Assembly: GCA_002483395.1 (NCBI GenBank)
Contig: DLHV01000219.1
Location: forward strand, 6,387 to 14,916
Direction: 5' to 3'
Length of the DNA: 8,530 nucleotides
From: Chloracidobacterium sp. UBA7659
GTDB taxonomy: Bacteria > Acidobacteriota > Blastocatellia > Pyrinomonadales > Pyrinomonadaceae
The notes below the pieces were generated by a model that was not told the origin of the DNA, made no database searches, and saw only the letters and a list, made by a program, of their open reading frames with translations. Positions 1,823 to 8,064 of this stretch are shown piece after piece. Made by a program: the position numbers and the translations under genes. Numbering within the stretch: position 1 is the first letter of the stretch; each line of letters opens with the position of its first letter.

Positions 1823-1914
1823 AACGCAAGCCGTTAAGACGCAGAGTCGCAAAGCTTTAATGGCTTTTTACTTTTTCATGATTTTGCGTCTTAGCGGCTT
1901 TGCGACTTTGCGTT
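1823..1914. repeat. Palindromic repeat pair of the gacgcaaag type (no gene inside)
   Basis: The left arm (1823-1855) is built of short units such as aagacgcagagtcgcaaag. The right arm (1886-1914) carries the reverse complement of the same units. GCCGTTAAGACGC (1830-1842) pairs with 1886-1898 with one mismatch, AGTCGCAAAGC (1845-1855) is exactly complementary to 1897-1907, and AACGCAA (1823-1829) to 1908-1914. The modules occur in a different order in the two arms, so several alternative hairpins are possible. The spacer 1856-1885 is AT-rich and holds no gene. The right arm ends one base before the nurA ribosome binding site. Confidence 0.8.
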
Positions 1915-1924
1915 AGAAAGGCTT

Positions 1925-3133
1925 ATGATGTTCCGCGACTTCGTAGACAAAGAGTTAAAGGATAAGCTTACCGAATTTCGCGAGCATCGTGAAAGGCATT
2001 CGGAGGCGGCGACGATCATTTTGGCGGCACTTTCGCGGCTTGCCGAAACGCCTTTCGAAGGCATTCAACGCCGATTTGAAGCTACAGAAAACATCGGGGC
2101 GTTTCCGGCGTCGGAGATCGAAGCTTCTCGCTCATTCGTTTTCCCTTTCGACATTTCCTGGCCGAACCACGAGCGGGCTCGCGACTGGGCGGCTGAAATA
2201 CTTGACGACCGGACAACCTTTGCGGCCGACGGGAGCCAGGTCTATGCGGGAAAGGAAACATCCGTGCCGGTGGCGATGATCCAGATCGGATCGTTCGAAA
2301 ATCCGCATGCCGCCGCGAAAGCATACGAAAAAAATGTCCGTGTCGAGATACTCTCGCCCGCCGATCTATTTCGCGATCAGGAAGAGCCAATGAACCCGGA
2401 CATCCGTGTCGAGGAACGGCGTTACCTAGGCGAGGTTGCCGCGATCGGTGATTTTCTAAAAAAGAAAAAAGGATGGCAGTCACGGGGCGAGCGGATGCCG
2501 CTGGCGTTTTTTGACAATCCGCTGCTCGTTCCATTCTCGCAGAAAGGGCTGCAAAAAAGCCTGCTTGAAGCGACCGTCGATCTTGTCACGTTGTCCCGCG
2601 AAACCGAAGTGCCGCTTGTCGGTTATGTTGACCGCAGCTTCTCCCGCGATCTGATCACGATGCTCGCCGCGTTCGATCCATCGGCGGATTGCTCTGAAGC
2701 ATCCGTTTACGATTCATGGCTATTGAACTCATCGGCAGCAGACATGCCGGCTGTGCTGAATTCATGGGGCGACCGGACCTGTTATTGCTATTCAAAACGC
2801 CGCGGTCTCAACGCGTTCATAGATCAGGCGACCGGACGGCCGACCGCCGGTTTTACTTATCTTCAAACGATGTCGGATTCTCCGCCAGCGCGGCTGGATA
2901 TCCCGGCCTGGATTTATGAGCAAGGGCTTTTGAATGAACTTGTTGACGTGGTTCGCGCAGAATGCGTGATCGGTTTGGGCTATCCATATCCGCTCGAAGC
3001 GGCTGATCAGACAGCGGTCATTTCGACCCGCAACAGGGAAGTCTTCTTCCGGTCTTTGCAGGATTTCGCATCTCGTGAAAAACTAGATTTCAGCGTTGCA
3101 CGCAAAGATACCAGTAAAGCAAGACGCAGATGA
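1925..3133 (+). CDS. nurA: NurA-family DNA nuclease
   Basis: This 402-residue protein carries the NurA hallmark FAADGSQV (D102-G103-S104) after a helical N-terminal region. Further conserved-looking acidic patches are FFDNPLL (D197) and GYVDRSFSRD (D236, D242), and the C-terminal part has GYPYPLEAADQ (352-362). In characterised systems NurA is a Mn-dependent 5'-3' nuclease that works with the HerA translocase in end resection; related pairs also act in phage defence. AGAAAGG at 1915-1921 is a good ribosome binding site: 3 bases from ATG 1925 and 6 bases from ATG 1928, so the second Met may be the real start. The final Lys/Arg-rich residues run towards the repeat arm, and the stop is 5 bases before it, so the extreme C-terminus may have been altered by repeat insertion. 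A probable HAS-barrel gene follows beyond the GxxExxY cassette. No HerA ATPase is visible. Confidence 0.85.
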   Translation: MMFRDFVDKELKDKLTEFREHRERHSEAATIILAALSRLAETPFEGIQRRFEATENIGAFPASEIEASRSFVFPFDISWPNHERARDWAAEILDDRTTFAADGSQVYAGKETSVPVAMIQIGSFENPHAAAKAYEKNVRVEILSPADLFRDQEEPMNPDIRVEERRYLGEVAAIGDFLKKKKGWQSRGERMPLAFFDNPLLVPFSQKGLQKSLLEATVDLVTLSRETEVPLVGYVDRSFSRDLITMLAAFDPSADCSEASVYDSWLLNSSAADMPAVLNSWGDRTCYCYSKRRGLNAFIDQATGRPTAGFTYLQTMSDSPPARLDIPAWIYEQGLLNELVDVVRAECVIGLGYPYPLEAADQTAVISTRNREVFFRSLQDFASREKLDFSVARKDTSKARRR

Positions 3134-3138
3134 AGCCA

Positions 3139-3166
3139 GCCACAGAGAACACGGAGAACACAGAGA
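3139..3166 (+). repeat. Left inverted arm of the GxxExxY cassette
   Basis: This 28-base arm matches the reverse complement of 3528-3555 at 24 of 28 positions. It contains a 9-base unit repeated three times: CACAGAGAA (3141-3149), CACGGAGAA (3150-3158) and CACAGAGAA (3159-3167). It begins 5 bases after the nurA stop and ends 4 bases before the GxxExxY start codon, to which it supplies a purine-rich leader. The same family recurs at 7695-7718. Confidence 0.85.
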
Positions 3167-3170
3167 AAAG

Positions 3171-3536
3171 ATGTCGGATACCTTGACGCAGGCGATAATT
3201 GGGGCAGCAATAGAAGTGCATAGAAATTTGGGACATGGCTTAATAGAATCGATTTACGAGGAAGCTTTGTGCCATGAATTCGACTTGCGCGGCATCAAGT
3301 ACCAACGTCAGATTGGAGTCGATATAGTTTACAAAGGCAAGGTTATCAAGGGCCAACGCCTTGATCTTTTAGTAGAAGGTGAAGTCGTTGTCGAATTGAA
3401 ATCTGTTTCGCGATTGCCGGAGGTCGCGACGGCTCAAGTTCTTTCATATTTGAAGGCAACGGGTTTAAAACGTGCGTTGCTAATCAACTTCGGTCAGCCA
3501 AAACTTGTCGAAGGAGTAAAAAGAATCTCTCTGTGA
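3171..3536 (+). CDS. GxxExxY family protein (PD-(D/E)XK nuclease superfamily)
   Basis: This 121-residue protein matches the GxxExxY family. The name-giving motif is GLIESIY (G23, E26, Y29), preceded by the typical IIGAAIEVHRNLG. It then has a PD-(D/E)XK-like core: RLDLLVEG (D65) and VVVELKSV (E75, K77), followed by AQVLSYLKATG and LLINFG. All predicted catalytic residues are present, so it may be an active metal-dependent nuclease; the family's biological role is not established as far as I know. ATG 3171 is chosen because the upstream frame (HREHGEHRE) is only the translated 9-base repeat, and because the length then agrees with the usual about 120-130 residues. The start lies 4 bases after the left repeat arm. 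The stop TGA (3534-3536) lies inside the right arm. Gene and arms form a compact cassette between nurA and the HAS-barrel gene. Confidence 0.9.
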   Translation: MSDTLTQAIIGAAIEVHRNLGHGLIESIYEEALCHEFDLRGIKYQRQIGVDIVYKGKVIKGQRLDLLVEGEVVVELKSVSRLPEVATAQVLSYLKATGLKRALLINFGQPKLVEGVKRISL

Positions 3537-3555
3537 TCTCTGTGCCCTCTGTGGC
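3528..3555 (-). repeat. Right inverted arm of the GxxExxY cassette
   Basis: This is the reverse-complement partner of 3139-3166 (24 of 28 identical). It supplies the last codons and the TGA stop of the GxxExxY gene and ends 7 bases before the ATG of the next gene. The intervening bases up to that ATG are pyrimidine-rich, so the following gene has no recognisable Shine-Dalgarno sequence. Confidence 0.85.
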
Positions 3556-3562
3556 TTTTCTT

Positions 3563-4153
3563 ATGAAAATCGCAAAGATCGTCAGCTCAAATTCCCACAT
3601 TGATTACATCGGACGCGTGATCGACGAACTCGATTCGGATGCGCCGCCAAAAGCGGGAGATTTCGGCTTTGCTCAATGGGTGAGCGTTCCGATGGACGAC
3701 GGGGATGTCGTTGGTGTGATCTACGATTCGAAGCTGGTGAATCCCGAGTACGCGAATTATGGCCCAAGGCTGAGCCCGAAGCCATCGCTTGCGAATTTTA
3801 CTCCGGATTATTTGAACGAGCAGGGAATTTTGCTCGGAATTTTGCTGCTTGGAAGTTTTGACAAAAGCGGAAATGTTCGGCACGAGATACCGCGTCGTGT
3901 CGTTCCGGCGGGGCAGGACGTATTCAAGATCGATGACGCGGCGGTGAAGAAATTCCACACCGACGCGGACGGGTCCGTTCGCCTCCATTATTATTCGCAG
4001 GTCATTGCCCACGCGGGGCTTTTTGCCGTTCCGTTAATGGAAGCAATAATAAAGCAGGTCTCGGCCGATCTTTTGGAACCCGAACGCCAGCGACTGGCCG
4101 TGTTGATGCAGAATCTGGAATGGCAGCGGACGTTCGGTGCCGTCAGAGCTTAG
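3563..4153 (+). CDS. Probable HAS-barrel protein (HerA/NurA-associated)
   Basis: This 196-residue protein opens with MKIAKIVSSNSHIDYIGRVI, then DFGFAQWVSVP (33-43) and VVGVIYDSKLVN (49-60). That is a run of short beta strands resembling the HAS-barrel at the N-terminus of HerA ATPases. LLGILLLGSF (90-99) and PAGQDVFKID (115-124) continue the pattern, and the C-terminal about 50 residues look helical. There is no Walker A motif, so this is not the ATPase itself but may be a separate barrel or adaptor subunit that docks NurA or a HerA hexamer. ATG 3563 is chosen over GTG 3533 because the extension would be repeat sequence (ISVPSVAFL). There is no Shine-Dalgarno sequence; translation may depend on coupling to the gene upstream. 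The HAS-barrel assignment is pattern recognition plus its nurA neighbour, hence moderate. Confidence 0.6.
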   Translation: MKIAKIVSSNSHIDYIGRVIDELDSDAPPKAGDFGFAQWVSVPMDDGDVVGVIYDSKLVNPEYANYGPRLSPKPSLANFTPDYLNEQGILLGILLLGSFDKSGNVRHEIPRRVVPAGQDVFKIDDAAVKKFHTDADGSVRLHYYSQVIAHAGLFAVPLMEAIIKQVSADLLEPERQRLAVLMQNLEWQRTFGAVRA

Positions 4154-4194: not shown

Positions 4195-4905
4195 ATGTCA
4201 AATCAGAATGCATATATTGGGAAGGATGTTGAGCGGCTGTTCAAAAATAGCGTTAGGAGTAAGGCGCACGTCCTCGAATCACTGAAGCAGTGCTTCAACA
4301 TTGAAGGGGAGTTTGCCACGTCATATTCGACTGGCACCGACGCCGGCAAATCTGATGTGATATTGAAATTTGCCGACGGAAAAACGCTTAGCGCAAACGT
4401 AAAAGCCTTCAAGGCTGGATTCAATCAGATAACACGAGCAAAGATTCCCGCATTTTGCACACGTTTCGGAATCGAGAGTTTGAAGCCTATTTTTGAGGAC
4501 GGCGCGATTCGTGTTGCGAGTAAGTCTGGGCGATTCATATTGGAATCTGACGAAGATAAAGTTCTCGAAATACTTTCGCCTCTTGCGAAGCGAATTTTGC
4601 AGGTTTCGATAGCTGGACTCGAACGTCCTGAACTCTTGGTACTTTATGATCGCACCAAGAACCTCATGATTCTTTACGGTATGGACGATTTGTTGGAAAA
4701 TCTGGATTATCAGATTACGTTTTCGAAAAAAGGTATTATAAAATTAGGCCACTACTTTACCATACAGAGAAAGGGAGGAAACGGGGTTCATTCGATACAC
4801 ATATCGAAGACATCACTTGACCATCCAGGAAATGGCCTCCAAGTGAAAATGAATGTGCGCAAATTTGTTCTTGAAAATGAGTCCTTGATCACATACCACC
4901 CGTGA
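4195..4905 (+). CDS. Putative type II restriction endonuclease (PD-(D/E)XK-like)
   Basis: This 236-residue protein lies directly upstream of a DNA methyltransferase gene on the same strand, the standard layout of a type II restriction-modification pair. No named family is recognised. A likely nuclease core is GTDAGKSDVILKF (D54), then LSANVKAFKAGFNQITR (N68, K70): an Asp, a strand, and a strand carrying a Lys, as in PD-(D/E)XK enzymes but with NxK in place of ExK. GFNQITR may add substrate-binding residues. The C-terminal half (VLEILSPL, PELLVLYD, YQITFSKKGIIKL, then LQVKMNVRKF near the end) could be a recognition domain. The start is ATG 4195, with weak upstream GAAGAA. Composition is more AT-rich than nearby genes (18 GC in 60 at 4681-4740), which suggests horizontal gain. 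It could instead be a non-restriction nuclease accompanying a solitary methyltransferase. Confidence 0.6.
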   Translation: MSNQNAYIGKDVERLFKNSVRSKAHVLESLKQCFNIEGEFATSYSTGTDAGKSDVILKFADGKTLSANVKAFKAGFNQITRAKIPAFCTRFGIESLKPIFEDGAIRVASKSGRFILESDEDKVLEILSPLAKRILQVSIAGLERPELLVLYDRTKNLMILYGMDDLLENLDYQITFSKKGIIKLGHYFTIQRKGGNGVHSIHISKTSLDHPGNGLQVKMNVRKFVLENESLITYHP

Positions 4906-4934
4906 TTGAGTTTGCGCCATCTGTGGGATATAAT
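4906..4934 (+). promoter_or_regulatory. Sigma-70-type promoter of the DNA methyltransferase gene
   Basis: TTGAGT (4906-4911, four of six matches to the -35 consensus) and a perfect TATAAT (4929-4934) are separated by exactly 17 bases. The -35 box begins at the first base after the TGA of the endonuclease gene (4903-4905). Transcription would start near 4941-4943, leaving a leader of only about 8-10 bases before ATG 4951. This is the best promoter in the window. Confidence 0.7.
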
Positions 4935-4950
4935 TGCAAGTACAAAAAAA

Positions 4951-5757
4951 ATGGAGCTAGAAAAAACCTATAACGAAAATTGCATTGAAACACTTCATCG
5001 TATGCCGGACGATTTTATCGATATGACGATAACAAGTCCGCCGTACGATGATCTGCGAGATTACAATGGTTATCATTTTCCGGTCGAGGAAATTGCTGCG
5101 TCGCTTTATCACAAGACAAAAAAGGGTGGTGTCGTGATCTGGGTTGTGGGCGACCGCACGGTCAACGGCGACGAGACACTTTCGAGTTTTAAGCATGCTT
5201 TCGCGTTCAAAGACGCCGATTTTCGCGTTCACGACACGATGCTGTACGTAAAGAAGAACCCGATCCCGAGTGACTGCGGCAAGCGTTACCGCCAGTGCTT
5301 CGAATATATGTTCTGCTTTTCGAAGGGTCAGCCGAAAACTTTTAATCCAATTACCGAGCCGACCAAATCGGCAGGTCAAAAAATTAAGGCATTTCGAATC
5401 ACCGAGGTAGGACGCGGCAACGTACCGGATGAGGACATAGGCCGCGAGATAAAATCCGAAAGGAAAGTAAGCAACATTTTTGCTTACAACGTCGGCACTT
5501 CAAGTTCGAAGGACAAGGTCGCGTTCAGCCATCCGGCAATTTTTCCTGAGCAGCTTGTCGAAGACCAGATCAGAACCTGGACAAACGAAGGCGATCTGGT
5601 TTACGACTGCTTTATGGGAAGCGGGACGACGGCAAAGGTTGCTCATTTGATGAACCGGCGATGGCTGGGATCGGAAATCTCCGAAGAATATGTGAATATC
5701 TCCAAAGAACGACTCGCTCCGTATCTCGACGTAATGGAGTTCTTTGCCGCAAAATAA
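4951..5757 (+). CDS. Beta-class site-specific DNA methyltransferase (N4-cytosine or N6-adenine)
   Basis: This 268-residue enzyme transfers a methyl group from S-adenosylmethionine to an exocyclic amine in DNA. Catalytic motif IV, TSPPY (28-32), lies before the SAM-binding motif I, DCFMGSGTT (219-227); this order defines the beta class. The run PPYDDLRDYNGYHF, GGVVIWVVGD and RYRQCFEYMFCFSKG are typical of the N4/N6 methylase family often seen in phages and restriction-modification loci. SPPY is most common in N4-cytosine enzymes but not exclusive, so the base is left open. ATG 4951 is preferred to the in-frame TTG at 4906 because a near-consensus promoter fills 4906-4934 and the family-like sequence starts at MELEKTY. 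There is no Shine-Dalgarno sequence; the predicted leader is very short. The recognition sequence cannot be read from the gene. It probably protects DNA from the upstream endonuclease. Confidence 0.9.
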   Translation: MELEKTYNENCIETLHRMPDDFIDMTITSPPYDDLRDYNGYHFPVEEIAASLYHKTKKGGVVIWVVGDRTVNGDETLSSFKHAFAFKDADFRVHDTMLYVKKNPIPSDCGKRYRQCFEYMFCFSKGQPKTFNPITEPTKSAGQKIKAFRITEVGRGNVPDEDIGREIKSERKVSNIFAYNVGTSSSKDKVAFSHPAIFPEQLVEDQIRTWTNEGDLVYDCFMGSGTTAKVAHLMNRRWLGSEISEEYVNISKERLAPYLDVMEFFAAK

Positions 5758-7718: not shown

Positions 7719-7734
7719 GAAGAAGATTTTGTCA

Positions 7735-7750
7735 ACAGATGGACACGGAT
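7735..7750 (+). repeat. Left arm of an exact 16-base inverted repeat
   Basis: ACAGATGGACACGGAT is exactly complementary to 8014-8029. The sequence ACACGGATAA occurs twice in tandem here (7743-7752 and 7753-7762), giving a 10-base period. The arm encloses the MITE-like element. Confidence 0.85.
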
Positions 7751-7763
7751 AAACACGGATAAG

Positions 7764-7966
7764 GGTAATGTCCTAATCTTGTGGTGCCAATTTCAAGAGA
7801 ACAACTCCCTCTCAGCGTTCTCTGCGAAATCTCGGCGATCTCCGCGTTAAAATTGCTTCAAACGCGGAGGCCGCTGAGAAAGACGCGGAGTCCGCCAGGA
7901 AGTGGTTTGTGATTTCATGTCGGTTAGTCAGCTACGTCACAAACACCATCATTTTAGGACACCACC
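7764..7966. mobile_element. MITE-like element with terminal inverted repeats
   Basis: The ends GGTAATGTCCTAA (7764-7776) and TTAGGACACCACC (7954-7966) are inverted repeats matching at 11 of 13 positions. Over 23 bases (7764-7786 against 7944-7966) 17 match. The 7-base sequence GGATAAG flanks the element on both sides (7757-7763 and 7968-7974, one extra T on the right), as a target-site duplication would. The 203-base interior has no transposase and holds the gcggag-type palindrome. It could be a non-autonomous derivative or the fused ends of a deleted insertion sequence. Confidence 0.5.
7809..7900. repeat. Innermost gcggag-type palindrome
   Basis: CTCCGCGTT (7840-7848) and AACGCGGAG (7861-7869?) form an exact 9-base stem: the second arm begins one base into the run at 7861, and the loop is about 12 bases. 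Imperfect complementarity continues outward over roughly 30 more bases per side, as in CTCGGCGATC paired with GCCGCTGAG and CTCTGCG with CGCGGAG. No T-run follows on either strand, so it is not a standard intrinsic terminator. Confidence 0.75.
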
Positions 7967-8013
7967 TGGATAAGAAAAAAATGGGTTAAATTTGACGTTA
8001 CTGGCTTTAACCG

Positions 8014-8029
8014 ATCCGTGTCCATCTGT
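8014..8029 (-). repeat. Right arm of the exact 16-base inverted repeat
   Basis: ATCCGTGTCCATCTGT is the exact reverse complement of 7735-7750. The flanks TTAACCG before it and GGATAA after it continue the style of the acacggataa family, but complementarity to the left arm stops here. Confidence 0.85.
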
Positions 8030-8064
8030 GGATAATTCTATCGCGTCTCTGAGGCTTTGGACGG

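Follow-up and report, generated by a model that had tools for sequence, protein, structure and literature searches.

The window analyzed here, meaning the whole stretch of 8,530 nt, is from Chloracidobacterium sp. UBA7659 (GCA_002483395.1, contig DLHV01000219.1, positions 6,387-14,916). It carries a gene of the GxxExxY family, a PD-(D/E)XK nuclease family (3171..3536, + strand, 121 aa), between nurA (1925..3133, + strand; PF09376, E 2.3e-21) and a downstream gene (3563..4153, + strand). The downstream gene had been named HAS-barrel in a preliminary description of this DNA, a name for which we found no Pfam or NCBIfam match and which we keep only as the label HAS. The nuclease gene is flanked by a left arm (3138..3166, + strand), made of three CACAGAG-type word copies with 2-nt spacers that read toward the gene, and by a right arm (3528..3556, - strand) that is its inverted copy, with 25/29 bases complementary and 361 nt between the two. 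The left arm starts 4 nt after the end of nurA, and the right arm ends 6 nt before the next ATG (3563). Random 60x60 inverted comparisons within the same window scored 24 at the 99.9% level and never above 30; the arm pair has a local score of 38, indicating that the inverted arms first reported as a 24/28 match are real. They had also been described as palindromic, which is incorrect, as a single arm consists of three direct word copies and folds at only 0 or -1.4 kcal/mol; only the pair is inverted. The gene is indeed bracketed by the arms, but it does not merely fill the space between them, because it runs into the right arm, which contains its final two codons and its stop (TCT CTG TGA, 3528-3536). 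Further downstream (4195-5757), a 236-aa protein without a family match is encoded directly 5′ of an N6_N4 DNA methylase (PF01555, E 9.5e-43), and the two may be a restriction-modification pair.

The window also contains arm pairs that lack a gene. One, of the CGCAAAG/CGCAGAG kind, is located just 5′ of nurA (1823..1924; best ungapped arms 1828-1855 and 1897-1924, 23/28), and this stretch folds as a long hairpin (z -4.5). Another, of the ACAGATGG/ACACGGAT kind, spans 7729..8035 (arms 7729-7750 and 8014-8035, 20/22) and encloses an inner inverted pair of the CGCGGAG kind (7830..7879; 7830-7848 and 7861-7879, 16/19), which is borderline, with a score of 23 against the 99.9% chance level of 24. 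The 7729-8035 pair lies in the intergenic space between two genes, and a third, outer pair noticed by eye was not above chance.

The protein between the arms was assigned to GxxExxY by PF13366 (E 1.3e-39, 135.6 bits, cut-off 22) and TIGR04256 (E 1.1e-40, 138.6 bits, cut-off 35). The G, E, Y, D, E and K of the GxxExxY and D...ExK motifs did not vary among 16 diverse and 30 close homologues, and the predicted catalytic residues E26, D65, E75 and K77, previously listed as intact, are intact and invariant among the 30. A structure model returned PD-(D/E)XK nucleases as its best structural matches; as regards the PD-(D/E)XK nucleases near Cas4 (SSO0001, 4ic1), Foldseek gave no match at E <= 0.001, and a sequence search against solved structures gave none. 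PADLOC matched the protein to Cas4 only weakly (E 0.009-0.03), and no Cas match was present among the ten window proteins scanned with Pfam and NCBIfam. The same two databases returned only PDDEXK_3/GxxExxY matches for this gene and no tyrosine HUH transposase; neither a DDE nor another known transposase was detected in the cassette, whose single gene is the PD-(D/E)XK protein.

We asked how general the arms are. The family is present in 25 of 30 genomes, including the window's own, which has nine GxxExxY genes (ten matches, two of which are halves of one gene). The class sample comprised 97 loci from 25 genomes of the window's class, with fragments L103 and L104 and three more partial or contig-edge matches left out, and arms were scored as the best inverted alignment between the 350 bp upstream and the 350 bp downstream of each gene. 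The median arm score was 43 (n = 97), and 84/97 loci exceeded 25, the 95% level of 70 control windows taken from the same loci. With the flanks of other loci as the control (median 19, 95% level 30), 74/97 exceeded the 95% level. These values bear on the trivial explanation that the arms reflect chance or a repeat-rich neighborhood: the words occur frequently in several of the genomes, and some of the 70 control windows contain strong inverted pairs (maximum 106). Against this, the mean score of each gene's own upstream-downstream pairing was 41.9, and the permuted mean stayed at or below 23.9 across 10,000 permutations. In addition, Uma2, another PD-(D/E)XK family, had 1/27 loci above 25 (score 26) and 0/27 above 27 (27 of 30 fetched loci were usable), compared with 80/97 GxxExxY class loci above 27. 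We consider this explanation refuted by the Uma2 control and the permutations, and give it almost no probability.

A contig scan across phyla with an alignment of the window's clade gave at least 80 loci, two of which were dropped for short flanks, leaving 78. Among the matches listed were Planctomycetota, Proteobacteria, Chloroflexota, Nitrospirota, Bacteroidota, Verrucomicrobia, Marinimicrobia, Spirochaetes and two archaeal bins. Arms scored above 27, the 95% level of 104 control windows, at 65/78 of these listed loci, and above the control maximum of 33 at 55/78. Compared with the flanks of other loci, only 35/78 of the listed matches were above the 95% level, because most cross-phylum loci share one word. 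The archaeal loci are poor examples, with L317 scoring 26 with visible words and L320 scoring 20. Looking for inverted arms at GxxExxY genes elsewhere had been proposed as a check, and they were found at these 84/97 class loci and, among the matches listed, 65/78 loci of other phyla, being absent above threshold from 13 in each set. The arms at the window gene are no local oddity.

Each arm is built of tandem copies of a 7-letter word, and the word varies from gene to gene (CACAGAG, CGCAGAT, CACGAAT, CGCGAAA, ACAGGAT, CGCAAAG, CGCCAAG and others). In the 84 class loci with arms, the words read toward the gene in 53 and away from it in 13, with 16 lacking a callable word pair and two ties; in the 65 cross-phylum loci, among the matches listed, 59 read toward the gene and one away. 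Three or more units in a row occurred in 45/84 and, among the matches listed, 41/65 loci, respectively. By eye, most window-clade loci of other phyla among the matches listed carry GCCACAGAG-NN-CACAGAG, and clades about 50% identical to the window's have ACC-type starts, other words and other spacings.

The word follows the protein. Counting arms as alike at an arm alignment score >= 24, we found like arms in 56/57 pairs of class loci with arms whose proteins are >= 70% identical, in 64% of pairs at 60-70% identity and in 6% below 40%, and arm similarity tracked protein similarity (Mantel test, 0 of 2000). In 29 of the 57 close pairs, no homologous flanking gene was present in the stretches read. 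On a FastTree tree of 137 proteins (from 175 loci, leaving out those without arms above threshold or without a callable word), there are 49 changes of word, compared with a mean of 81.6 and a minimum of 77 in 200 shuffles, and 8 changes of its last letter versus 36.5 shuffled. The same was true of class loci alone (32 versus 52.7) and of other phyla alone (19 versus 27.3). Common descent of the cassette accounts for part of this linkage, which alone is no proof of recognition.

We then counted word pairs in the 30 genomes, having set down beforehand the word expected for each genome. Genomes with a resident gene of the matching word had more CACAGAG pairs (median 26 versus 4, p 2e-4; genus alone p 0.001), more ACAGGAT pairs (17 versus 0, p 0.005; genus alone p 0.03) and more CACGAAT pairs (18 versus 1, p 0.002, with G012 left out as partial; genus alone p 0.04). 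These raw counts include the arms of the resident cassettes themselves. Subtracting four matches per resident gene gave p values of 0.001 for CACAGAG (genus alone 0.003), 0.011 for ACAGGAT (0.065) and 0.067 for CACGAAT (0.27), so the link with abundance is firm for CACAGAG and weak for the other two. All five genomes without PF13366 had zero CACAGAG pairs. A strict link between gene and abundance is contradicted by G022, which has 111 ACAGGAT word pairs, many as inward-facing doublets (L226-L285), with no PF13366 match in the genome and no gene remnant in the stretches read. Additionally, G004 has 17 CACGAAT pairs and no PF13366, and G009 and G008 have 40 and 28 ACAGGAT pairs, respectively, without a resident gene of that word.

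Such genomes would be expected if GxxExxY were a passenger, with some other, unknown enzyme moving the doublets and the gene carried along in some of them, where it might serve to protect or process them. The weak abundance correlation for two of three words fits this reading, as do genes of the unrelated TIGR02436 family, which has 15 matches in the window's own genome. TIGR02436 genes lie between inverted arms of tandem 7-9 bp words at 26/30 loci (L105-L134) above the cross-pair 95% level, which makes a shared mover possible, and their arm similarity also follows protein similarity (Mantel test, 7 of 2000; 26 loci). The arm architecture is that of the GxxExxY cassettes; the protein is unrelated, the words are different and, by eye, the arms often have more units. 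TIGR02436 encodes four-helix-bundle proteins, which we take to be kin of the 23S rRNA intervening-sequence protein. We nevertheless regard a passenger role as unlikely, since the word follows the GxxExxY tree both in the class and across phyla, which is not required of a passenger, and CACAGAG counts follow the resident gene.

Orthologous junctions revealed different states of one site. At sdhA-sdhB, 20 of 21 loci in the genus were read (L154, at a contig end, was left out). A cassette with the gene confirmed by tblastn was present in four (G008, G006, G001, G049), gene-less word pairs in nine and other DNA in three; L145, L148 and L153 contained another palindrome type (GGAACGC...GCGTTCC), and the junction in G016 measured 2 bp. 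Two of the nine gene-less junctions, L143 and L155 from G009 and a second G006 contig, are identical, which may be cross-contamination of bins. At sufD-sufS, where arms were classified by eye in 30 loci among the matches listed, six held a cassette confirmed by tblastn (G014, G003, G032, G036, G043, G009), three had single or decayed arms, three had gene-less pairs, 14 had other DNA and two were near-empty (G016, 14 bp; G039, 28 bp). The two remaining loci are relics: the one in G018 agrees with the start of the gene at 34/41 bases, which is below the tblastn cut-off, and the one in G002 with its end at 44/53 bases (tblastn E 2e-5). Terminal inverted repeats are common to the gene-bearing cassettes, relics and doublets at this junction. 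Together, the two junctions indicate that the elements at one site vary by species, and the relics indicate that internal deletion can yield gene-less pairs. Both junctions are too diverged for a target-site duplication to be read.

The junctions also speak to the idea that the doublets came first and the gene invaded as a homing endonuclease, cutting gene-free doublets and being copied in by recombination between arms. Homing endonucleases of the PD-(D/E)XK kind are known, and our protein had a weak Foldseek match (E 0.066) to the catalytic domain of I-Bth0305I. By eye, the gene at sdhA-sdhB has a whole doublet to its left and to its right in L135 and on one side in L142. Doublets flank the gene on both sides at several further loci. 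We find this origin improbable, as the near-empty G016 junctions (2 bp at sdhA-sdhB and 14 bp at sufD-sufS) show that the doublets themselves come and go, and G018 and G002 show the reverse step, with the gene lost and the arms left.

At the window locus itself, nurA was found in 5/30 genomes, including the window's own, and no empty nurA-HAS site was seen among them; in the three nurA genomes of other genera, the 1.5 kb read contained neither a HAS nor a GxxExxY match. Sites without the cassette, which the preliminary description had suggested seeking here, are instead represented by the near-empty sdhA-sdhB and sufD-sufS junctions. Within the genus, the 30-genome search gave a nurA match in just one other genome, G017. 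It has a GxxExxY gene in the same place that is 87.6% identical to the window's, with flanks of 66% (nurA, 143 aa compared) and 55% (HAS) identity, which suggests that the insertion at this locus is old. The arms in G017 differ from the window's yet pair with each other, and next to the gene there is an additional gene-less pair. GxxExxY has probably been kept here and in G017 by purifying selection. In the class sample, 28/57 close protein pairs share a flank; many copies have long stayed at orthologous sites, with low amino-acid change, and movement is therefore infrequent.

Both flanks are homologous in 35 locus pairs, some loci belonging to more than one pair. In three of these pairs (L026/L047, L035/L048, L092/L094) the cassette lies in opposite orientation relative to both flanks, as expected from recombination between inverted arms. 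Inversions of this kind have reportedly been seen for insertion sequences (PMC3004938). These flips also concern the possibility that the arms are operator or terminator hairpins bound by GxxExxY and that nothing moves. The doublets are intergenic and can fold as hairpins, and the word-protein linkage would fit an autoregulated DNA-binding protein as well, but we judge a purely regulatory role very unlikely in view of up to 111 word-pair matches in one genome, presence and absence at orthologous junctions, deletion relics and the flips themselves.

The bracketing, the word-protein linkage, the presence or absence of cassettes at orthologous junctions, the gene-less pairs, the relics and the changes in orientation, all of which are observed, give good support to a gene-repeat unit with cognate arms that is mobile or once was. 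The gene and word change together across genomes, and the pair is likely a very small mobile element that would spread itself as well as copies lacking the gene. On balance, we favor the explanation that gene and arms form a co-varying cassette in which the nuclease probably recognizes its own word and moves the cassette and the gene-less pairs to other places between genes; a nuclease that does the moving is the best candidate mechanism. Two nuclease subunits would bind, one to each arm, and would cut near the arm ends or at a cruciform or hairpin formed by the arm pair, after which the element would be copied or joined by host repair into a new intergenic site. Gene-less pairs, the analogue of REPINs or MITEs, would be left by internal deletion and might still be mobilized in trans by a resident nuclease of matching word, and recombination between arms would flip the cassette.

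The closest parallel is the RAYT/REP system. Passages in PMC2817692 and PMC3116915 describe a RAYT (TnpA-REP) gene bracketed by inverted repeats, a repeat that co-varies with the protein, gene-less inverted doublets in intergenic regions, and copies within a genome that are mostly of different kinds. REPINs are inverted REP doublets according to PMC3116915, and PMC8266576 reports that TnpA-REP processes cognate REPs in vitro. Similarly to a REPtron, the GxxExxY gene lies between inverted repeats at 84/97 class loci and, among the matches listed, 65/78 loci of other phyla, its word co-varies with the protein, its gene-less doublets are intergenic, and the copies in one genome mostly differ in kind. 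Unlike RAYT, which is a HUH tyrosine transposase, GxxExxY is a PD-(D/E)XK protein, and unlike REPs its arms are direct word copies with no palindrome. Nor is the gene, in contrast to RAYT, consistently faster-evolving than its neighbors, with amino-acid change below both flanks in 14 and above both in nine of the 35 pairs with homologous flanks (pairs share loci). The correlation between gene presence and repeat number is also weaker than for RAYT/REP. The gene-less pairs resemble REPINs and MITEs in being short, inverted, intergenic and able to fold as hairpins, and the G018 and G002 relics suggest that they arise by internal deletion; they differ in having word repeats as arms and no known transposase. 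We conclude that the unit works like a REPtron but is none. The earlier suggestion of a RAYT/REP-like and possibly mobile gene-repeat unit agrees with the co-variation of arms and gene, the gene-less doublets and the deletion relics.

A broader reading, to which we give not quite even confidence, is that these cassettes could form an undescribed class of mobile DNA in many bacterial phyla, consisting of a lone small protein and inverted tandem-word arms, with each protein clade reading its own word, and having arisen with at least two unrelated proteins (the GxxExxY PD-(D/E)XK nuclease and the TIGR02436 four-helix bundle). We found no published report of arms at GxxExxY genes in the open-licence PMC literature. 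A mobile cassette of this kind would provide a function for a common nuclease family without an assigned role, account for the frequent CACAGAG-, CACGAAT- and ACAGGAT-type repeats of these genomes, and represent a REPIN-like system with a different enzyme. Under the broader reading, the word-to-protein code could be deduced from sequence alone, with over a hundred natural pairs here, and these pairs of protein and word allow a direct test of the recognition code.

As a further observation on the words, the spacer between CACGAAT copies seems by eye to be genome-specific, being mostly 1 nt in G017, G014 and G003 and 2-3 nt in G011. The arms of the resident genes in G017 (L094) and G014 (L092) also have a 1-nt spacer by eye.
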